From IMG/VR virus record IMGVR_UViG_3300033064_002981, positions 1 to 22,744 of that record: a DNA stretch of 22,744 nt; one strand, given 5' to 3'. This DNA is from a virus. A model generated the notes under the pieces. It ran no database searches and was not told where the DNA came from. It saw only the letters and a list, made by a program, of their open reading frames with translations. The position numbers were made by a program, and so were the translations under genes. This document shows, piece by piece, positions 8,185 to 21,109 of this stretch (its first letter is position 1; each line of letters starts with the position of its first letter).

Positions 8185-10674
8185 CTACTTGATCTGTTTC
8201 AGGTAGATAAACCCTTGTTCTTCTTTCAGAAGGCCAGCGTCTTTGAGCCGACATTCTAAATCTTGTCTTGAGTTGGCCTTTTTTCCTTTTGGCGCATGAC
8301 TCGAAAAAACGTCCTCCAGCTTGCTGATCGACACGCTCTCGCACACCTTCAGAAATTCGTCCACAGGCATGACGTCTTTGACCTGAAGGTAAGCTCCGTG
8401 TGCGGAGAGAATTTTTCGGGCAGCGCGGCGTTCGATCCGCTTAAATCCGGGAAAATCGACACCCTCTTGGACCGCTAAATCAATGCACCGCTTCCGTATC
8501 GAGGAAGCCCAAGCCTCCGCAATCGGGGCCAGCTTCAACAGCTCTGCTAGCATCTTGGGGTCGTTCGTTTGCAGTGCATCGACGGTCTCCGGCACAGTGA
8601 TGTTGTGCCCCTCATAGCGCTTGGTGATGTCCAACATGGTGCTAGCAAGAGCCGGACAAACGCTTTGTTTCCCGCAGTACTCACACAGCCCGTGCCCCGG
8701 ATTAAACGCCCGTTTAACATCGAGCTGGCCCTGCCGCGCTAACTGGGCCTTCCGAATCACGGTGTTAAACCGCAGAGCGATGCGCCCCATGTCGGCACGA
8801 GTGTAGGTAGCGAAGGAGACTTCATCCCTGTGTGGGATGGCAAAGTAAAATTCGAGGGTCTCAATCTCCGGAAAACGCTGGAGCGCCCCCAAAACGTAGG
8901 CTTGGGCTTGGGCGTTTTCCTCGGCATCGTCGATCTTCCCCCACCCCGTCTTGAAATCGACCATCAGGGCCTGCTTCCCGCTTTGCACAAAAACGTCGCA
9001 AGTCCCAAAAGTTGAAGTCCCGTCTCCGAGGTCGATGTCGAGGCGCAGCTCGTTAATTCGGTCAATTTGCTTCCAGCCCTTGGAGTGGACTAGGTCGGCA
9101 ACAAAGCTGCGGCAAATGTTGGCGACGTTTACCTCATCATCGTCTTGGAGTTTGGTAAAGTCACCCGTCTCCAAAGCATTGTGGATACGCGTTCCGCGCT
9201 CCGCGATTTCGTTAGTTCCCTCTCGGCGAAAATAGCTGGGGCAACGCTCAAAGTATTTGAGGGCGCTTGGGCTAAATTCCGCGTGTGGGCGTTCGTCGGC
9301 TTCTACTTTAACTTGTGGGACGGGCATGGGCGTGGTGGGCTTCCGCAGGGTTGTAGACTGGTAGCATATACCCGACTCAAAAAAAGTCAAATCGTTCAAA
9401 CTTTCTTGCGCCGGATTTAAGATTTCTAACTGCCGGAGTTTGCCGCGCACACTTCGCTCAATTTCTTCCTCAATGGTGCCAGAAGCGAAGATGACCTTTT
9501 GCAGGGACGGTGTTTTCCCCCCTGCGCGGTGGACCCGCCCGAGCGTTTGGACGAGGTCTTTGGCGTTCCAAGACGGCGAGATGATCGCTGCCCTCGGATG
9601 CCCGCCTTTGGTGTCGTGGAGCGAGACTCCCACTCCGCCAGCGGCGATGTTTGCGAGGATGATTTTGCTTTCATTGTTTTGGAATCTTTCGATGATGTTT
9701 TCTCTCTCCTGCGCTGTTTGGCCCCCGCGAATGATGTCAGGCCCTTTTAGCCGCTCACGAAGGGCCTCAGCGGTAGCGTCAAAATTGATAAAAACCACGA
9801 CGTGAAATCCTTCGCGCAGGAGATCTTCGGCCAGTTCTACGAAAACGGGCACCTTCAACAGTTCCACCTTTTGACGCGCACGCAACATGGCTGTCAATTT
9901 TTCGTGCTCGTGTCCTTTCTTGTCGGAAGCCGAACGGCTCTCCAGTTCGACAAGCTCGCGCTCCATGTCCGCGTAAATTTTTTGAACCTGCCCATCGCCG
10001 ATTTCAAGGGGCGTTGTGATGATTTGAGTTTCGGTAAATTTGTCCGCTAACATGGCTTTAGTCACCAGCGACCCGCGTGCCGGGAAGATCTCGCCCGCTA
10101 TTTTTCCTAAAAGCTCGGGGGTTCCGCGAAACTCAAAGCCACCCCAACGATTTCGGAAACACCCGTTGCGTTGGGCCCACGACCAAAAGTTGGTCAAAAT
10201 GTGGAGTCCGAGGATGTGGCCGAGCGCCCGCATTTCCGTCGGGTCCTCGGCAGCCGTGGCCGAACAGCACAGATTCAAAAATGGTTTGGCTTCAATCAGC
10301 ATCTTTGCATTTTTGGTTGCCGTCCCCTGACAGCGATGCACCTCGTCCCAGATGATTAAAGGGTCGGCTGGAAGCTCCCACACCCACCGCTTCCCTTCCC
10401 AGCGACCAAACTCCGTGGTCCCTGTGCGGAGTTTCTCGTAGTTAATCACCGCAAGAGTCGGGACGCCGCGTTCTTCCAGTTCGAGCCTCCATGAGGGGAT
10501 AACAATTTTCGGGCACACAACCAACGTGGGGCGTGCTAGCTCTCGGGCTACGTCGGCCCCCACAATAGTCTTACCTGTCCCGGTTTCACTCGCGTCCAGC
10601 GCCGATCGGTATTCGCGAATGGCGAAGAGTAAACGATTTCGACTAGCTGTCTGAATGGGGTAAAGCTCTTTCAT
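8185..10674 (-). CDS. SNF2-type helicase fused to Cas4/RecB-like Fe-S nuclease, 829 aa
   Basis: Residues 1 to about 430 form a superfamily 2 SNF2-like ATPase: Q-motif-like YPIQ, Walker A ETGTGKT (30-36), DEVH (110-113), CSAT (137-140), ILANIAAGGVGVSL (339-352) and arginine-finger motif QTLGRVHRAGG (376-386). From about 465 the protein is a DUF2800/Cas4-like nuclease: SPSALKYFERCPS with Cys478, GTRIH (494-498), Asp560, VDFKTG (572-577), QAQAY (589-593) and the Cys cluster CEYCGKQSVC (664-673), giving four Cys for an iron-sulfur cluster. Helicase and nuclease are usually separate phage genes, so the fusion suggests a single end-processing or recombination machine. It starts at ATG 10674, overlapping the upstream gene as ATGA. 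Confidence 0.9.
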   Translation of the reverse strand: MKELYPIQTASRNRLLFAIREYRSALDASETGTGKTIVGADVARELARPTLVVCPKIVIPSWRLELEERGVPTLAVINYEKLRTGTTEFGRWEGKRWVWELPADPLIIWDEVHRCQGTATKNAKMLIEAKPFLNLCCSATAAEDPTEMRALGHILGLHILTNFWSWAQRNGCFRNRWGGFEFRGTPELLGKIAGEIFPARGSLVTKAMLADKFTETQIITTPLEIGDGQVQKIYADMERELVELESRSASDKKGHEHEKLTAMLRARQKVELLKVPVFVELAEDLLREGFHVVVFINFDATAEALRERLKGPDIIRGGQTAQERENIIERFQNNESKIILANIAAGGVGVSLHDTKGGHPRAAIISPSWNAKDLVQTLGRVHRAGGKTPSLQKVIFASGTIEEEIERSVRGKLRQLEILNPAQESLNDLTFFESGICYQSTTLRKPTTPMPVPQVKVEADERPHAEFSPSALKYFERCPSYFRREGTNEIAERGTRIHNALETGDFTKLQDDDEVNVANICRSFVADLVHSKGWKQIDRINELRLDIDLGDGTSTFGTCDVFVQSGKQALMVDFKTGWGKIDDAEENAQAQAYVLGALQRFPEIETLEFYFAIPHRDEVSFATYTRADMGRIALRFNTVIRKAQLARQGQLDVKRAFNPGHGLCEYCGKQSVCPALASTMLDITKRYEGHNITVPETVDALQTNDPKMLAELLKLAPIAEAWASSIRKRCIDLAVQEGVDFPGFKRIERRAARKILSAHGAYLQVKDVMPVDEFLKVCESVSISKLEDVFSSHAPKGKKANSRQDLECRLKDAGLLKEEQGFIYLKQIK

Positions 10675-12046: not shown

Positions 12047-12271
12047 CTAACGCTTGTACCGAGCGCGTATAAATTTGCTTTTTGCAGGACTGCGTCGCAG
12101 TTGAACAAACTCAGAGTCTTGGTTCTTTACGACGTACTCCCACAGGGCTTCGCGAATTAGTTCCGATGTGTTAAGTCCGCTTTCTGACGCGAGACGTTCA
12201 ATTTTAGTGTAGTCTGATTTATCAACACAAAACGTGACACGTTTCGTGTTTGGGCTTATCTGATTAGGCAT
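12047..12271 (-). CDS. Second ribbon-helix-helix DNA-binding protein, 74 aa
   Basis: The protein begins MPNQISPNTKRVTFCVDKSD and continues YTKIERLASESGLNTSELIR with EALWEYVVKNQ. The strand KRVTFCV and helices fit a CopG/Arc repressor. The C-terminal tail is basic (RRSPAKSKFIRARYKR) and may add DNA contacts. It lies between the integrase terminator-like hairpin and the early operon, a typical place for a lysogeny regulator or excision factor; neither role is shown. It and the 56-aa RHH protein do not look like recent duplicates beyond the fold. Confidence 0.8.
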   Translation of the reverse strand: MPNQISPNTKRVTFCVDKSDYTKIERLASESGLNTSELIREALWEYVVKNQDSEFVQLRRSPAKSKFIRARYKR

Positions 12272-12359: not shown

Positions 12360-13607
12360 TTAGGCAACTCCTTTCGGGCTGAGGTTGAAATATTTACAAG
12401 CATCTTCAGGAACGGCTAGTGTTTGGTAGACGGCCTTAATCATCCGGATTGAGTTTCCGCTCTGGTCAGATACCAGCGCGGCGTTACCACATTCCGCCAT
12501 TGCATAAGAGATGAAAGAGTGCCTCAGCGCGTTGTGGCCCCACTTAGCTCCGCCGCCGAGTGCTCCTGTCGCGATGGTCCGGGTGTAGTCAAAGAAACTC
12601 CCCTCCGTTATGCGACCGGAGCTTTTGCTGCACAACGCCAACCACTCGGCAAGAGCGGGTCGGATGGGGAGTCGCCGCCCCTCTTTGGTTTTGGTCAGTC
12701 CCCGATGAAGAAGAATGCTTTGGGATTCAACACGGACGTCCTCCCATTGCAGTCGTTCAAGCTCTGCCGTGCGAATTCCAGTGAACGCCTTGATGGCGAG
12801 CGCGGCTAGTACCCACTTAGGAATCTCGCCGGACAGAGTCTTTAGTCGGGTGTATTCCAGCAGTTTCCCCAACTCTTCGGGGGTGTAGACGCTCTTTTCC
12901 TGATTTTCTTCGAAAGTAGGAAGCTCCATCGCCGCATGGGGGATGTTTTTTGGCATCGCTCCCATTCGAGCTTGAGCGTGGTTCCACACCGCCGTGAACG
13001 TGTTCGCTAAGTTGTTGCGAGATTTTCCGCTAAGCGCCCGACCCCGAAAGTGCTTCGGGCGGCAACAGGCCGTTTTGAGGAAGTAAACAATCTCGTCGCG
13101 GGTGATGCTGGATATGATACGACTCCCAAATTCCTGCGTAATAAAAAGGTGCTTGGACTTGGTGCTAGTCTTGTGCCGATCGCTTCCGCTAATTGATAAC
13201 TCGCTGTAGTGGTGATCGCACGCTTCTTTTACCGTCTTTTGGCTTACCCCAGCGTTGCTTTCCACGAAAAACTCAGCAGCTTTCAAGAGAGAAGACCCCG
13301 CCAGAAGAACTTTGGCTGCTCTAAACTCCGCAATGTCCGCAGGCGACATTGACGCTCGCTCTAGCCGCCCCTTGTTTAGGTCCGCCGCGACTTCTTCCGC
13401 TCTTGCTACAGCGCGTCCGGCATCCGCAAACTTCTCACGTTTACGCTGCCCCGCAACACTCCAATGGACGACGTGCTCGATCTTCTCGCCGTTTTGACCA
13501 CGGTACACCCGGACGGCTCCGAGTGCTGTTTTAATGACGCGGGGAAAAGACAGGGGTTTTATTTTCATCAAGGCAGCAGGGTTGGTAATGGTATAAGACA
13601 CGGACAT
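12360..13607 (-). CDS. int: Tyrosine recombinase / phage integrase, 415 aa
   Basis: Integrates and excises the phage genome. The catalytic domain shows GIRTAELERLQW (Arg279), LTKTKEGRRLPI (Lys306 or 308), GHNALRHSF (His358, Arg362) and the nucleophile Tyr394 in MIKAVYQTL. A core-binding helical domain lies at about 120-240 and an N-terminal beta domain (AVRVYRGQNGEKIEHV) at about 30-60, like arm-binding or MrcA-type folds. The usual His/Trp of box III is replaced in VSDQSGNS. The ending SGNS...Y...EDACKYF resembles integrases I recall from Verrucomicrobiota. The start is ATG 13607; an in-frame TTG lies at 13622. Confidence 0.9.
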   Translation of the reverse strand: MSVSYTITNPAALMKIKPLSFPRVIKTALGAVRVYRGQNGEKIEHVVHWSVAGQRKREKFADAGRAVARAEEVAADLNKGRLERASMSPADIAEFRAAKVLLAGSSLLKAAEFFVESNAGVSQKTVKEACDHHYSELSISGSDRHKTSTKSKHLFITQEFGSRIISSITRDEIVYFLKTACCRPKHFRGRALSGKSRNNLANTFTAVWNHAQARMGAMPKNIPHAAMELPTFEENQEKSVYTPEELGKLLEYTRLKTLSGEIPKWVLAALAIKAFTGIRTAELERLQWEDVRVESQSILLHRGLTKTKEGRRLPIRPALAEWLALCSKSSGRITEGSFFDYTRTIATGALGGGAKWGHNALRHSFISYAMAECGNAALVSDQSGNSIRMIKAVYQTLAVPEDACKYFNLSPKGVA

Positions 13608-13640
13608 ATTTGGTTTGTTCAATGTTTTCGATTTATTTTT

Positions 13641-13667
13641 TGTCCCCCCTTATCCACGAGGGGGACA
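13641..13667. repeat. Inverted repeat TGTCCCCC / GGGGGACA
   Basis: TGTCCCCC (13641-13648) and GGGGGACA (13660-13667) form an 8-bp perfect stem with an 11-nt loop just upstream of the integrase start. The right half belongs to a longer word, CGAGGGGGACAC, repeated at 13896-13907, and GGGGGACA returns at 13910-13917. These are candidate binding sites for the integrase arm domain or for a regulator such as an RHH protein. Confidence 0.5.
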
Positions 13668-13789
13668 CAAGTTACGTGCAAATTGTCGTAACTCGTTGAT
13701 ATTTATACCGTTGTTTATTTCCTCTCTTGCGAAGACTTGTGTGCAAGGCCCTCGCTTTAAGCCGCTTCCGGGGGTATATGTGGGTATAT

Positions 13790-13844
13790 GCAGACTTGCC
13801 AACAGGTTTTAAGTCCGATGTGTCTGCCATTCCACCACGCCGAC
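13790..13844 (-). other. tRNA-Leu(UAA)-like 5' half, candidate attP core
   Basis: The minus strand reads GTCGGCGTGGTGGAATGGCA, then GACACATCGGACTTAAAACC and TGTTGGCAAGTCTGC. The segment TGGTGGAATGGCAGACAC is the D-arm of tRNA-Leu and CTTAAAA is an anticodon loop with UAA. There is no T-arm (no GGTTCGA) and no 3' acceptor strand CGCCGAC, and the anticodon stem has mismatches, so it is not a complete tRNA gene. A 6-bp inverted repeat GCAGAC/GTCTGC flanks the anticodon part. Next to an integrase this is best read as attP identity with a host tRNA-Leu gene. Confidence 0.6.
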
Positions 13845-13982
13845 AAAAGGTTGATAAACAGGGGTTTGCATTGAAAAGCTGAGCCATTCTTTTTTCGAGG
13901 GGGACACTAGGGGGACAGTCATTTTGACCCCCCGATCAGAAAACACATCCGTTAGAAACGAAACCGTCGATTTCCCGGTATA

Positions 13983-14010
13983 TTTGACTTGTCGTCTCCT
14001 ATATGTTACC
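13983..14010 (+). promoter_or_regulatory. Promoter-like motif TTTGAC-N11-TATATGTTACC before terminase
   Basis: TTTGAC at 13983-13988 and TATATGTTACC at 14000-14010 are separated by 11 nt, and an identical pair with the same spacing precedes the portal start. Spacing is too short for a classic sigma70 promoter, so either the host sigma factor differs or the site binds a phage activator. The terminase ATG lies 12 nt beyond the motif. Confidence 0.5.
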
Positions 14011-14021
14011 TGCTTACGCTC

Positions 14022-15821
14022 ATGGGAGTTACTCGTTATGGCCGCACATGGCCCGAGGGCGTGGATGCGCTGAACATCGAATTGTACTGTTTTCGCCATG
14101 ATCGGACCCTAGAGCAGGGAGGCCTCGGCAAGGCTGGACATTTCCGCAATATTGTCAACGTCCTCTGGCACCCAACCTCTCCGAAACCGTGGACGTGGCA
14201 TCCGTGGGCGGATCAAATGCTGGAGGGCGCTTGCCGCACGAACTATTTGGCTGTGGCGGGTTGTGCCTCTTCAGGGAAAACCGACTTTTTTGCGGTTTGG
14301 GCTATCGTCAACTACATCGCGGCCCCTCTCGAAACGATGGTGCTGGTGACCTCGACCACCCTTAAAGAATCCCGAAAACGGATCTGGGGCTCGATCCGGG
14401 AGTACTGGCAGGCTGTGCCGGGCCTCCCCGGCAAATTGGTGGACTCGGTCGGTCAGATTCGTTTTGAGGACGGCAGCGGGGAGTCTCTCTCGGACAAGGC
14501 GGGGATCACCCTCGTTGCCGCCGAACGGTCCAAGGAAAAACAGGCCATCGGCAAGCTGATCGGCCTCAAACAGAAGCGGGTCTTCCTCATTGCCGACGAG
14601 TTGCCCGAGTTGTCCGAGGCCATCCTCCAAGCGGCCTATTCGAACCTTTCAGCCAACCCCTACTTTCAGCTCGTGGGCCTCGGCAACCCCAACTCCTACT
14701 ACGACGCGTTCGGGTTGCTAGCACAGCCCAAGGGCGGTTGGGCAACGGTCACCGTTAATGACGAGGAGTGGCAAACCGAACGTGGAGTCTGCATCCACTT
14801 AGACGGAACCAAAAGCCCGAACATTCTTGCAGGCCGGACCATCTATCCGTGGATGATTACGGAGGACAAACTTGAAGACGCCCGCCAGAAATTCGGCGAG
14901 AAGTCCGTGGCTTACTGGCGCATGTTCCGTGGGTTTTGGTGCCCCAGCGGTTCGGAGGATTCCATTTACGCAGAGGCCGACATTGTTAAAACACAAGCCG
15001 ACGCGCCCCCTCTTTGGCTGGCTCCCCCCACCCCGATCGCAGCTTTAGACCCCGCATTCACCAACGGGGGGGATCGAAGCATCCTGTATTTCGGCTATGT
15101 CGGGACCGACGCAAATACTAAGGTACGTATCGTCTGTTTCGATCGTTTTGAACCTCTCTCCGAAGATGTTTCCTCCAAGGAGCCCCGTGCTTACCAGATC
15201 GTTCGGCAGTTCCGGGCCCGCTGCGAGCAAGAGGGCGTGTCCCCCCGCAACGCCGCTTACGATGCGACCGGAGCGGGAAACCCGTTCGGGGACATCGTAG
15301 ACGCCTTGTGGAGCCGGGATGTTCTCCGTGTTCATTTTGGCGGTAGGGCAAGCAAGCTCCCAGTATCTCTGACGGACCGCACTTTGTCAGATGAACGATA
15401 TGCCAACAGAGTTACGGAGCTATGGTTTTCCGCGAAAGAGCTAATGCGGACGGGACAGGTGCGGGGTATTTGCAAGGAGCTAGCACGCGAAATGTGCGAG
15501 CGACGTTACATCACCGATAAGAGCGGCACTTTGCGTCTGCGAGTCGAACCCAAGTCGGAGATGAAAGAGCGAACAGGCAAGTCTCCCGACGTAGCTGACG
15601 CAGCTTTTATCATGCTCGATCTTGCCCGACAGCGGCACGGCATGGCGGCGGACCCCGTCGGCTACGGCAGTGATTTCGGAGGGCGACGGGCGGCAAAGCG
15701 CAAGATCATGGACAAGTTCAATCAGGTAGCAACCAGCCGTTCGGTGAACCTATCTACTGGGAAAGGACTTGCGTTTGACATTCTAGGGGGTATATGTTAC
15801 CTCACTAACTTCACGTTTTGA
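14022..15821 (+). CDS. terL: Terminase large subunit, 599 aa
   Basis: The DNA-packaging motor and nuclease that fills the procapsid through the portal. The ATPase domain has Walker A GCASSGKT (80-87), Walker B VFLIADEL (187-194) and a coupling-motif region GLGNPNS (219-225). The RNase H-like nuclease has ALDPAF (Asp343), AAYDATGAG (Asp414) and DVADAAFIMLDLARQRHG (Asp523/526 and the closing helix). Length is usual for the family. ATG 14022 is chosen; a TTG at 13989 falls within the promoter-like motif. No Shine-Dalgarno motif is visible. No small terminase gene precedes it. Its stop overlaps the portal start. Confidence 0.93.
   Translation: MGVTRYGRTWPEGVDALNIELYCFRHDRTLEQGGLGKAGHFRNIVNVLWHPTSPKPWTWHPWADQMLEGACRTNYLAVAGCASSGKTDFFAVWAIVNYIAAPLETMVLVTSTTLKESRKRIWGSIREYWQAVPGLPGKLVDSVGQIRFEDGSGESLSDKAGITLVAAERSKEKQAIGKLIGLKQKRVFLIADELPELSEAILQAAYSNLSANPYFQLVGLGNPNSYYDAFGLLAQPKGGWATVTVNDEEWQTERGVCIHLDGTKSPNILAGRTIYPWMITEDKLEDARQKFGEKSVAYWRMFRGFWCPSGSEDSIYAEADIVKTQADAPPLWLAPPTPIAALDPAFTNGGDRSILYFGYVGTDANTKVRIVCFDRFEPLSEDVSSKEPRAYQIVRQFRARCEQEGVSPRNAAYDATGAGNPFGDIVDALWSRDVLRVHFGGRASKLPVSLTDRTLSDERYANRVTELWFSAKELMRTGQVRGICKELAREMCERRYITDKSGTLRLRVEPKSEMKERTGKSPDVADAAFIMLDLARQRHGMAADPVGYGSDFGGRRAAKRKIMDKFNQVATSRSVNLSTGKGLAFDILGGICYLTNFTF
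15774..15801 (+). promoter_or_regulatory. Promoter-like motif TTTGAC-N11-TATATGTTACC before portal
   Basis: TTTGAC (15774-15779), an 11-nt spacer and TATATGTTACC (15791-15801) repeat the motif found before terminase, although the spacers differ in sequence. It lies inside the last codons of the terminase gene, 16 nt before the portal start, so its conservation is not explained by the encoded residues, which differ in context from the other copy, a non-coding site. Confidence 0.5.
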
Positions 15822-18097
15822 GCGTTACCGTCTCCCATTCATCTGACCTACTTGTTCCCACTCTCAATGAGGAGGGGATTCCGCCGTGTAGTCGCGTAAA
15901 GGACGCCCACAGCTTGCGAGAAATTTACGTTCGCTTGCGCGAAGCCGACCGCCGCGCTTCCGAACATCGCTCTGAAGTGCAGGCTATGTTTGACGGCCAG
16001 CCCCCTTACGATGAAGTCGAACTGCGGGCAACAGGCCAAGCGTTCCGGTGCAACCTAAATTTCGACGAAGCATCTTCCATGCTAGAAGCCTCAGTCGGCC
16101 AATACGTGGACTTGCTAAACGCTGTCGAAAACTTAGTTACGCTCAAAACGACAATCGGGTCTGAAGCCCAACGCGCTGAGTGGGAGCCGATCATGGCGGA
16201 GGAGCTGACCAAGATGCTCCGGAGCTGGCCGGAATTTCATTACAACTATTTGCTGCTAGCTCATCATTTTATTGCTCACGGTGTGGGCATCGCCCTGTTT
16301 GAGGACGACGTAGACTGGCGCTGGAAAGTCATCGGGCTTGGAGATTTCCTCATGCCGCGCAAAACGCTTGCTTCCGAGCAGGAGCTGGAGGTCGCCGTTG
16401 CCCGCCGCTCGTTCCAAGCGCAACAACTTTTCCGGTACATCGAGGACGAAGAAACCGCGATCAAAGCGGGCTGGAACGTAGAGGCTACTCGCAAAGCCAT
16501 CATGGAAGCGCAGCCTAAGCACACAAGCAACGCTGGGTTTGGTGACTGGGAACAGTTTCAGACGGAGGTCAAGAACAACGACCTCTATCATAGTTACGCG
16601 ACCGCTTCAGAAGTGAAGGTCATCCACGGCTGGGTGCAGGAGTTTGACGGCTCTGTAAGTCATTATATCGCGTTAGAGGCTGACGAAGGCGACATCGACA
16701 ACGTATTTTTGTACCAATGCTCTTCCCGTTTTGAGTCTCCAAGCCACGCTTTTGTGGTGTTCCCCTACGGGATTGGCACCAATGGTTTTTTCCATAGCAT
16801 TCGAGGATTAGGGCACCGCATTTTCCCGCACATTCAAGTTTCTAACCGCCTCCGTAGTCAGCTCGTGGATGGGTCAATGCTAGCAAGCAGCTTGCTCATT
16901 GTGCCCCAAACCGAGGAGGCCCTCGACTCTTTGGCGTTCACTTACTACGGCCCCTATGCCGTGCTAAACCCCGGTTTCGACATTGCCGAGCGTTCAGTGC
17001 CGGACTTTTCCAAGAACGTCATGCCCGTTTTGAACGACATGGCGGACATCGTTTCCAAAAAAGTCGGGCAGTACAACGTCAGTGAAAATTTCGCTGGGAG
17101 CAAAGAGCGCACCCGCTTCGAGGTTCAAGCCCAGCTTTCAGCTCAGTCTAGGGTATCCACTGCTTCCCTGAATTTGTTTTACGAACCGTGGACGCGACTT
17201 CTTCGGTCAGTTGTAAGCCGAGTCATTCGCCGAGACTACAACGTGCTAGAATCGGGCGGTCGGGCTGTGATGGAGTTTCGCAAGCGCTGTCTTAAACGAG
17301 GGGTTCCTAGTGAAGCGATCCACGCGGTGGACGTCTCATCAGTCAAAGCTGTCCGAGCTATTGGCAACGGATCCGAGCAGATGAGAACGTTGGCCCTGAA
17401 CGAATTCACAGAGATGATGGGCTCGTTGGATGACGTGGGTCGTCAAAATCTTGTACGCGATCGAGTGGCTGCTCGCATTGGCTATGAGGCGGCAGACCGC
17501 TACGCGCCAAAACCGACTGAGGGCGGTCGCCCCCCAATCGACACGAGGTTTGCTGACCTAGAGAATGCCGTGATGCGCTCTGGCAGCGACATGATGATCC
17601 TCCCGACTGACAACCACATTGTTCACGCCCGCATCCACATCGCAGCCATGAGCGAAGTTGCCGATGCGGTGGATCAAGGTCAGGTACCTGTCGAACAAGT
17701 TATCGAATTCCTTTCCCGTTGTTTTTCTCATACCGAACCACACGTCGCGGAGGCCTCCAAAGAAAAACTCCTTGCCGAAGAATCCGCAGCGCTTCGAAAG
17801 GCCCTGCAAAACCTCGGGGAAATGGTTACTAACGGTTTGCGAAAAGTTCAAGCCGCGCAGCGTAAAGCTGCACAAGACGCTAGCCAAATGGACCCCGCTC
17901 AAGGTGCAGCTCCACAGGCGGCACCCCAGCAACCCCAGATTGATCCCAAACTGGAATCAAAAGTTGCGGAGCACCGCTTAAGACTGCAACTAATGCAAGA
18001 AGCGGCAGAAACTAAAATGGCTATTCGGATGGCCGAGGCTCGCCAAAAAATGTCACTCAAAGACGCCGAAACCGCCAGTAAAGTATCTAGTTTTTAA
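15818..18097 (+). CDS. Portal protein, 759 aa
   Basis: Forms the ring at one capsid vertex through which DNA passes. Recognisable features are MFDGQPPYD near residue 58, CNLNFDEASSMLEASVGQY (about 80-98), a long mixed alpha/beta body, and a C-terminal region from about 660 rich in Ala, Gln and charged residues (QAAPQQPQIDP, then MAIRMAEARQKMSLKDAETA), predicted as a coiled coil. Length exceeds the 450-550 aa common in siphoviruses and is closer to podovirus portals. The only plausible start is TTG 15818, which overlaps the terminase stop; no in-frame ATG occurs before MFDG. Calls rest on position after terminase and the N-terminal pattern. Confidence 0.85.
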   Translation: MSVTVSHSSDLLVPTLNEEGIPPCSRVKDAHSLREIYVRLREADRRASEHRSEVQAMFDGQPPYDEVELRATGQAFRCNLNFDEASSMLEASVGQYVDLLNAVENLVTLKTTIGSEAQRAEWEPIMAEELTKMLRSWPEFHYNYLLLAHHFIAHGVGIALFEDDVDWRWKVIGLGDFLMPRKTLASEQELEVAVARRSFQAQQLFRYIEDEETAIKAGWNVEATRKAIMEAQPKHTSNAGFGDWEQFQTEVKNNDLYHSYATASEVKVIHGWVQEFDGSVSHYIALEADEGDIDNVFLYQCSSRFESPSHAFVVFPYGIGTNGFFHSIRGLGHRIFPHIQVSNRLRSQLVDGSMLASSLLIVPQTEEALDSLAFTYYGPYAVLNPGFDIAERSVPDFSKNVMPVLNDMADIVSKKVGQYNVSENFAGSKERTRFEVQAQLSAQSRVSTASLNLFYEPWTRLLRSVVSRVIRRDYNVLESGGRAVMEFRKRCLKRGVPSEAIHAVDVSSVKAVRAIGNGSEQMRTLALNEFTEMMGSLDDVGRQNLVRDRVAARIGYEAADRYAPKPTEGGRPPIDTRFADLENAVMRSGSDMMILPTDNHIVHARIHIAAMSEVADAVDQGQVPVEQVIEFLSRCFSHTEPHVAEASKEKLLAEESAALRKALQNLGEMVTNGLRKVQAAQRKAAQDASQMDPAQGAAPQAAPQQPQIDPKLESKVAEHRLRLQLMQEAAETKMAIRMAEARQKMSLKDAETASKVSSF

Positions 18098-19594: not shown

Positions 19595-19885
19595 TTAAGT
19601 AAGTAATAACGAACGTCACTGGGATAGAAATAGTGACAATAGTTAACTTACCGAAAGATTTATTTGACAACCCCGTTTGGTATGTGATGGTTGCATCATG
19701 CTAGCAGGAGCAGTAAATCCTGTGCGACCTCTGCGGAGTCGTAAAACTCGCTGACAGTTTCTACGAGCGTTTCCTTCTTTGTGAAGGTTTGTCGGTTTCG
19801 CTCACCCGACTGAATCTAACCCGCGTCTCCGACGCCGTGTGGCATTTGGGTGTACGCGGGTAACACAATCAACAAGGAGGTCTTT
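19595..19885 (+). promoter_or_regulatory. Structured leader of the major capsid gene
   Basis: This 291-nt gap has no convincing gene. It holds a promoter-like TTTGAC-N12-TATGTGATGG (19663-19690), a TGCTAGCA palindrome (19699-19706), small hairpins CCTTC/GAAGG (19773-19787) and GTCGG/CCGAC (19791-19810), and a perfect 8-bp stem ACCCGCGT/ACGCGGGT (19819-19861) that ends about 10 nt before the AAGGAGG ribosome site. An 18-codon ORF starts in the palindrome (19698-19754). The layout suggests strong, separately controlled capsid expression. Confidence 0.55.
19663..19690 (+). promoter_or_regulatory. Looser copy of the late promoter-like motif before capsid gene
   Basis: TTTGAC (19663-19668), 12-nt spacer, then TATGTGATGG. 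It matches the two copies before terminase and portal in the first box and roughly in the second (TATGTG for TATATG), with one extra spacer nucleotide. The sequence GGTATGTGATGGTTGC also resembles GGTATATGGGGGTTGC at 7355. Confidence 0.45.
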
Positions 19886-21109
19886 ATGCCTGCTAGCTTT
19901 AGTAACTATCAAATCAACAACATTCTGGAAGCCGAGGCCAATCGTATTGGTCCCGACATCCACCGCAAAGTGCTGGACACCAGCATTTGGCTCAAACTCA
20001 CCAAACAAGAAAGTTGGCCCGATGAAATGGGCGAAGAAATCTCCGTTTTGACTTACGGGCGGTCTTTGCCGTCTGTGTCGAGTAACGACGGTGACATCAC
20101 TTCGAAGTGGGCTAACGTGTCGTTTAACACGGTCGTCGCCGACCCAAGTAACTGCGTTCCGCAGGCTTCGGTCATCGAATTCAGTCATTACCTGCGGTCT
20201 TACAACCTTCAGCAAAACGCGCTGGAGAGTCCCCCGCTCTGTATCAATGATCTGCGTTATTCCTTCAAGCGTAAGGAACAGTTGAGCAACATCTTCGACA
20301 TTCTCACCGAGAACGTCGCTTATGGTTGGAAAGAGCGTTATCGCAACGAATACATGCGCGTCTCCGAAAATAAAGGTGTCGCAGCCCACGGGGGAGTCAC
20401 GTTTGCGAGCACAATGCCTGTTCCTGCCACTGCGGCGGGCGCAGCGGCCAACCTGACGCAGGCCATGCTGGATTCGGTTTACCTTCGTCTCGTTCGCGAC
20501 GGCGCTGGTATGAATCCGCTCGGTCGGGCAGACGGTCGCCCTGAGTTCGGCGTGATCCTCGGTTCCGAGGCTTCGATGAACCTCATTCGCGACAACAGCG
20601 GAGATGTCCGGTACGACTTCCGTTACAGCACTCGTGCTAACGAGTTGCTAGCACCGCTCGGCATTGATCGCAGCTATCGTGGTTTTTACCACATGGTTGA
20701 CGACTTTGCTCCAAGGTACAACTACGTGGCAGATTCAGACGCGGTTACCGCAGGTACCCAGCCCGCATGGGTTCGGGTGGCTCCTTACATCAAGGACGCT
20801 TCGCTTAATGCTCGCGGTTGGATTGTCAACCCGGCGTATGAAACCGCTGAGTACGAAGACGCCATTGTTTACCATCGCGACGTGTTTGTGAGCATGGTTC
20901 CGAAGCCCATTACGGCTCCGGGCGGCAACACCAAATTCGACGCAGTTGCCTATAAAGGTGACTTCAAATGGCTGAACATTCAGGATCGCGTTGTCAATCC
21001 GGATCGGACGATCGGATATTTCAGAGCTGTCCTGAGTAACGGCACCAAGCCGCTCAAACCTGAGTACGGCTACGTCATCCGCTTCAAGCGGAAGGGCACG
21101 AACGCCTAA
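19886..21109 (+). CDS. Major capsid protein, 407 aa
   Basis: Main shell protein, called from position after the scaffold-like gene, isolated strong expression signals and size. It begins MPASFSNYQINNILEAEANR and includes GRSLPSVSSNDGD, SHYLRSYNLQQNALESPPLC, FGVILGSEASMNLIRDNSG, PLGIDRSYRGFYHMVDDF and a beta-rich C-terminus VAYKGDFKWLNIQDRVVNPD, compatible with the HK97 fold. ATG 19886 is chosen because AAGGAGG lies 7 nt upstream, the best ribosome site of the right arm; an in-frame ATG at 19850 has none and lies in the leader stem. Confidence 0.85.
   Translation: MPASFSNYQINNILEAEANRIGPDIHRKVLDTSIWLKLTKQESWPDEMGEEISVLTYGRSLPSVSSNDGDITSKWANVSFNTVVADPSNCVPQASVIEFSHYLRSYNLQQNALESPPLCINDLRYSFKRKEQLSNIFDILTENVAYGWKERYRNEYMRVSENKGVAAHGGVTFASTMPVPATAAGAAANLTQAMLDSVYLRLVRDGAGMNPLGRADGRPEFGVILGSEASMNLIRDNSGDVRYDFRYSTRANELLAPLGIDRSYRGFYHMVDDFAPRYNYVADSDAVTAGTQPAWVRVAPYIKDASLNARGWIVNPAYETAEYEDAIVYHRDVFVSMVPKPITAPGGNTKFDAVAYKGDFKWLNIQDRVVNPDRTIGYFRAVLSNGTKPLKPEYGYVIRFKRKGTNA

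Follow-up and report, generated by a model that had tools for sequence, protein, structure and literature searches.

Integrases that target tRNA genes use, as a norm, the 3′ half of the gene (PMC10865867, PMC8371274), in agreement with the statement in an earlier note on the DNA studied here that most tRNA-targeting phages carry the 3′ part. Use of the 5′ half has been called seldom encountered in bacteria (PMC8371274). For the pTN3-like archaeal integrases, the site is the tRNA 5′ half and the rebuilt tRNA is expressed from the integrase promoter (PMC8371274). The T7-like cyanophages P-SSP7 and S-TIP37 have been shown by PCR to integrate into tRNA-Leu, with both int and attP being required, and their attP of about 39 bp is the first half of the host tRNA-Leu and lies beside a tyrosine integrase (PMC8776855). 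Strand exchange by tyrosine recombinases commonly spans 7 bp that correspond to the anticodon loop (PMC8371274).

Here we describe a 5′ half in a virus record that is classed as linear (IMGVR_UViG_3300033064_002981; 22,744 bases), and the whole of this stretch is referred to as the window. It is very probable that positions 13807-13844 form an attP core corresponding to nt 1-38 of a host tRNA-Leu(UAA), and that the host tRNA is conserved by donation of a 5′ half from the phage. Attachment sites of this kind are uncommon yet already known; the new details are the host group, the swap between isoacceptors, and an integrase that lies beyond the half. With the proposed site, integration by way of a tRNA 5′ half, known from archaeal plasmids and marine T7-like phages, would also take in Verrucomicrobiota phages and small elements.

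Gene setting of the tRNA half

Besides a tyrosine integrase and a ribbon-helix-helix regulator, the window encodes a terminase, a DNA polymerase of family A and a fusion of a helicase with a PD-(D/E)XK nuclease. The features at and around the tRNA half are as follows.

12047..12271, minus strand: ribbon-helix-helix protein, possible regulator adjoining int (PF01402 / PF21983; phrog_876 transcriptional repressor)
12360..13622, minus strand: tyrosine recombinase (integrase), 420 aa (PF00589, E 2.9e-7; phrog_1 integrase, E 4.6e-27)
13802..13806, minus strand: CCTGT, phage-specific, replacing host TCCGA on the P′ side of the core (by sequence comparison)
13807..13813, minus strand: CTTAAAA, 7-nt anticodon loop, presumed strand-exchange (overlap) region, from the biology of tyrosine recombinases
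13807..13844, minus strand: tRNA-Leu(UAA) 5′ half (nt 1-38), candidate attP identity block (exact match to complete Chthoniobacterales genes over 13807-13842)
13845..14021, minus strand: intergenic stretch from the tRNA half to the terminase start, which would lie upstream of the rebuilt tRNA (by position only)
13989..15821, plus strand: terminase large subunit, open from 13989 with a likely ATG at 14022, diverging from the tRNA half (phrog_2, E 2e-10)

The integrase gene is 185 bp from the tRNA half, on the same strand and downstream of it. Since no break separates int from the tRNA half or the half from the terminase gene, the layout is that expected of the free (unintegrated) form of a phage. 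Elsewhere in the window, a SNF2/ResIII-type helicase (phrog_62) and a DUF2800/PD-(D/E)XK nuclease (phrog_69) are united in a single 829-aa ORF (8185-10674, minus strand). Two large ORFs on the plus strand, 15818-18097 and 19850-21109, occupy portal-like and capsid-like positions without a Pfam or PHROG match, and the former has no match in the phage collection either.

The half matches host tRNA-Leu(UAA) genes

From 13844 to 13807 on the minus strand, the block reads GTCGGCGTGGTGGAATGGCAGACACATCGGACTTAAAA, which is nt 1-38 of tRNA-Leu(UAA), with G1 at 13844 and A38, the final anticodon-loop base, at 13807. It comprises the D-arm, the 5′ strands of the acceptor and anticodon stems and the whole UAA anticodon loop, and the T-arm is absent. 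The alignment to host genes bears out what had been proposed from the window alone, a 5′ half of a tRNA-Leu with a UAA loop and no T-arm. The interval given at that time, 13790-13844, needs to be trimmed: 13807-13844 is tRNA-like, whereas the 17 nt at 13790-13806 are phage sequence. When the host tRNA-Leu(UAA) is aligned, as the earlier note had advised, the stretch 13807-13842 is exact over 36 nt to the Chthoniobacterales copies, and 37/38 nucleotides are identical over nt 1-38. Such a 36-nt exact match in 22.7 kb is far beyond chance. The sole mismatch is at nt 2, where the window has U for host C and a U-G pair with G71 is still possible. Divergence from the host gene begins at nt 39, with CCTGTTGG in the phage where the host has TCCGAAGG. 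The mismatches in the anticodon stem had raised the suspicion that the identity block is shorter than the visible similarity, and the block indeed stops before the 3′ strand of that stem. In attB, the CTTAAAA loop lies between the inverted anticodon-stem arms TCGGA/TCCGA.

The exact 32-mer GTGGTGGAATGGCAGACACATCGGACTTAAAA was found in 12 bacterial contigs (11 of them with a complete tRNA-Leu(UAA) at that spot) and in no other viral contig searched. The 36-mer is common only to the Chthoniobacterales contigs L002, L004, L006, L008, L009 and L013, plus L011; lineages beyond that Chthoniobacterales group have just 32 nt in common with the window half. L011 (JAGYIQ010000039.1) is labelled Pirellulaceae but is probably misbinned, because its upstream DNA is syntenic with Chthoniobacterales loci. 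By these matches, the phage is predicted to have a host in the Verrucomicrobiota, which is presumably a freshwater organism, judging by the names of the MAGs. Since nt 2 is unlike all known host copies, the exact host lies outside the genome collection. L008 and L009 are two contigs of one MAG (G001), and their copies of the tRNA-Leu(UAA) locus are 99.6% identical, which reflects either duplication or strain mixture.

In silico recombination rebuilds the tRNA on one side

We joined phage DNA through TTAAAA to host DNA after TTAAAA, and the reciprocal. The phage 5′/host 3′ join gave a tRNA-Leu(UAA) with 5/5 host genomes, and neither the reciprocal host 5′/phage join nor attP alone gave a tRNA with the same five hosts. 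The tRNA rebuilt with the window half carries a U-G pair in the acceptor stem owing to the U at nt 2. These results support the earlier reading of the block as a candidate attP that replaces the host 5′ half, as only the phage-5′/host-3′ join encodes a tRNA in silico. A complete tRNA within the interval had been named as grounds against that reading; ARAGORN found none in the window, and Rfam gave no match at the gathering threshold.

The more usual arrangement, in which the phage restores the 3′ half and the stretch in the window is merely an unusual copy, would follow the norm for tRNA-targeting integrases (PMC10865867, PMC8371274). It has almost no chance of applying here, since exact matches of at least 12 nt between the window and the host gene are confined to the 5′-half block, ARAGORN and Rfam report no tRNA, and the sequence contradicts such an arrangement, there being no 3′ half in the window.

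A sister phage carries the half of another isoacceptor

A sister phage, represented by three contigs (L063, L064 and L065), was found through a terminase query of viral contigs; the window integrase as a single query of viral contigs found no relatives. The three contigs share with the window long stretches of 72-79% DNA identity, and the integrase is 64.6% identical. At the same aligned position, the sister phage has GCCGGCGTGGCGGAACTGGCAGACGCGACGGACTCAAAA and then CCCTATAAG, which is nt 1-38 of tRNA-Leu(CAA). Several host-order genomes contain complete tRNA-Leu(CAA) genes to which this half is exact, with identity running from the first mature-tRNA base to the final anticodon-loop base. Joined in silico with three tRNA-Leu(CAA) hosts, the sister phage gave the same outcome as the window. 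The intact or exact state of the block, together with its replacement by that of another Leu isoacceptor, points to selection for matching the host tRNA. On the sequences compared, the isoacceptor exchange in the sister phage appears to be the best evidence for the half as a working attP core. In each of three genomes (G003, G004 and G005), the UAA half as in the window and the CAA half as in the sister phage both occur exactly. With two sister phages and two tRNA genes leading to the same three genomes, an exact half can serve for host assignment of uncultured viruses. The window and its sister are also a natural pair for studying how an integrase changes its target isoacceptor.

Direct and inverted repeats flank the core in a cluster that is partly conserved in the sister phage, and they resemble the arm sites of integrases. 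Four of the five GGGGGACA copies in the window fall inside 13600-13960, around the core. GTCCCC and CATATACCCACATATA are retained between the window and the sister phage while the tRNA half differs. The putative arm-type sites are as follows.

13641..13648, minus strand: TGTCCCCC as read on the plus strand, inverted copy of GGGGGACA (by repeat clustering)
13660..13667, plus strand: GGGGGACA, integrase side (by repeat clustering)
13772..13790, plus strand: GGGTATATGTGGGTATATG, tandem repeat adjoining the core (kept in the sister phage as CATATACCCACATATA)
13899..13917, plus strand: GGGGGACACTAGGGGGACA, two sites, terminase side (GTCCCC..AG.GTCCCC in the sister phage)

It is very unlikely that the tRNA fragment is a passive relic of imprecise excision or recombination and not a working attP. 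The mismatch at nt 2 could be taken in favor of a relic, as could the results of searches for an integrated form: among 213 genomes of the host order, there was no integrated copy of the window phage, of L063 or of another close relative (the best integrase matches being at most 38% identical), and 384 class and 388 phylum genomes, searched without a positive control, gave no integrase relatives at E 1e-45. A relic, however, is expected to drift, whereas the block is intact or exact, and the sister phage has the half of the other isoacceptor, which begins and ends at the same points and lies between conserved repeats.

Another explanation is that recombination takes place in a short core alone (about 7-10 bp, within the anticodon loop), with the phage supplying a complete tRNA to make up for the loss of that of the host. 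Such tRNA-dependent lysogeny is known in actinobacteriophages (PMC10865867), and the recombinase may need less than the whole identity block. We regard it as highly improbable for the window phage, since 37 of the 38 nucleotides at nt 1-38 are in common with the host gene, the sister phage is exact from the first base, and a full tRNA is rebuilt in silico; the short core of about 10 bp without tRNA rebuilding that is typical of such lysogeny is not what is seen here. Moreover, no complete tRNA was found in the window, which is a genome fragment, or in the 76-kb sister record.

Comparison with 5′ halves in other viruses

Orphan 5′ halves of tRNA-Leu(UAA/CAA) are present in about 110 viral contigs, and two degenerate pattern scans gave 16 and 95 records. 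P-SSP7 (L098, 45,176 bases) is among them, and its half and that of the window stop at one and the same base of the TTAAAA loop. Like the window, pelagiphages (for example HTVC109P) and related marine contigs (L047-L062) have only the 5′ half of tRNA-Leu(UAA), ending at the anticodon loop. Neighboring integrases were located with an HMM built from sequences that include the integrases of the window and P-SSP7, and this HMM served solely for finding neighbors. Where an integrase was recognized in this way, in nearly all cases the gene lies upstream of the half and shares its strand (54 loci), and int is downstream on the same strand only in the window and the three sister records (L063-L065). 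These counts of int position are lower bounds because the HMM missed some short or divergent neighbors (56 contigs were scored as having none); they also take in natural-junction loci and phages represented by more than one overlapping record.

In the cyanophages, int precedes the half, is encoded on its strand and is followed by an RNA polymerase gene, whereas in the window int is downstream, RNA polymerase is absent and the structural genes are different. In pelagiphage-type contigs, the integrase gene and the half share a strand and the gene stops about 115-130 nt before the half, again unlike in the window, and the window integrase shows no BLASTP similarity to the ORFs neighboring pelagiphage-type halves. 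An integrase immediately upstream of the half and transcribed towards it, as in cyanophages and pelagiphages, is found neither in the window nor in L063-L065. The window and the 5′-half attP class of these phages have the mechanism in common, but the module is not the same. A further difference is from the pTN3-like elements, in which the suicidal archaeal integrase gene is split on integration; the window int is intact and lies outside the core.

Proposed integration and promoter

The integrase, the half and where it ends, the repeats, the isoacceptor swap in the sister phage and the analogous natural junctions described below are all read directly from DNA. What we infer is integration of the window phage, the precise point of crossover, binding at the arm sites and a phage promoter. 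The integrase of 12360-13622 would exchange strands within the 7-nt anticodon loop common to attP and attB. One junction would then consist of the host promoter and host 5′ half followed by phage DNA toward int, leaving a dead tRNA half (predicted sequence: host tRNA promoter + half + CCTGTTGGCAAG). At the other, upstream phage DNA would lead into the 5′ half of the phage joined to the 3′ half of the host, the two halves making up a complete tRNA-Leu (predicted sequence: phage TTATCAACCTTTTGTCGGCG...TTAAAA + TCCGAAGGGG). Because identity is confined to the 5′ side, it would be the front half of the tRNA that the phage donates, and the rebuilt tRNA would be transcribed from phage DNA, most likely starting in the gap that separates the tRNA half from the terminase gene.

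It had been argued that the phage would have to provide a promoter. Phage DNA would indeed lie upstream of the rebuilt tRNA, but no convincing promoter could be recognized: a consensus search found no sigma-70 promoter upstream of the tRNA half (13845-14021, minus strand), and the weight-matrix scores of the phage upstream regions were no better than those of shuffles (P = 0.29 for the window and P = 0.18 for L063). Among host upstream regions, those of L006 (P = 0.002) and L008 (P = 0.014) scored above shuffles and others did not. As some host tRNA genes also score poorly, the missing phage promoter is weak evidence either way. The finding poses, in testable form, the question of what drives transcription of the rebuilt host tRNA.

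Given the position of int downstream of the half, with both on one strand, it would come to lie behind the host's own tRNA-Leu promoter upon integration. We tentatively suggest, as an idea that may well prove wrong, that integration couples int to the host tRNA-Leu promoter and leaves a phage promoter in control of an essential tRNA of the host, and that this group of phages swaps 5′-half cassettes between Leu isoacceptors. If this is true, integrase expression and the host leucine-tRNA supply would be coupled in the lysogen.

Natural junctions in bacterial genomes

In L011, host DNA that is syntenic with other genomes lies upstream of a 5′ half, which is followed by unrelated non-tRNA DNA; the 1.1 kb of this element that is visible contains no integrase. 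We scanned 384 class genomes for 5′ halves without T39 after them and obtained two further junctions, L088 and L089. Among 213 genomes of the host order, there was no half-tRNA junction of the searched form. In the natural junctions, as in the window and the sister phage, identity stops at the final anticodon-loop base.

L088 (G272:C61, Verrucomicrobiae) contains, at about 51.8-59.5 kb, a 7.6-kb integrated element with both ends visible. At position 59470 (minus strand), the half tRNA is followed by non-tRNA DNA, and at position 51812 the same half, in a 40-nt repeat, lies within a complete tRNA-Leu(UAA), which has a divergently oriented PF00589 integrase gene about 100 bp away. Paired GGTTGCAAC/GGTTACAAC repeats occur near both ends of the element, and the host gene past the rebuilt tRNA resembles, as read from the sequence, that of formamidopyrimidine-DNA glycosylase. 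The likeness to the window is in the tRNA-Leu(UAA) 5′ half, which is duplicated at both element ends with the tRNA rebuilt at one. The element differs in being small, in encoding AAA and ERCC4 proteins and in having an integrase that diverges from the rebuilt tRNA; this integrase has no significant BLAST match to that of the window. G272:C61 is an integrated element with the 5′ half supplied by its integrase end, and is not close kin of the window phage.

A second integrase C-terminal remnant (HLRHT...GHK) is located at about 59530-59916 (minus strand) of G272:C61 and ends 59 nt upstream of the attL half tRNA, which suggests an older element at the same site. In L089 (G241:C54:31788 onward), where the other end is off the contig, the half tRNA-Leu precedes tandem GGTTGCAACCACGG repeats, after which come a small antitoxin-like ORF and a zeta-toxin-like ORF.
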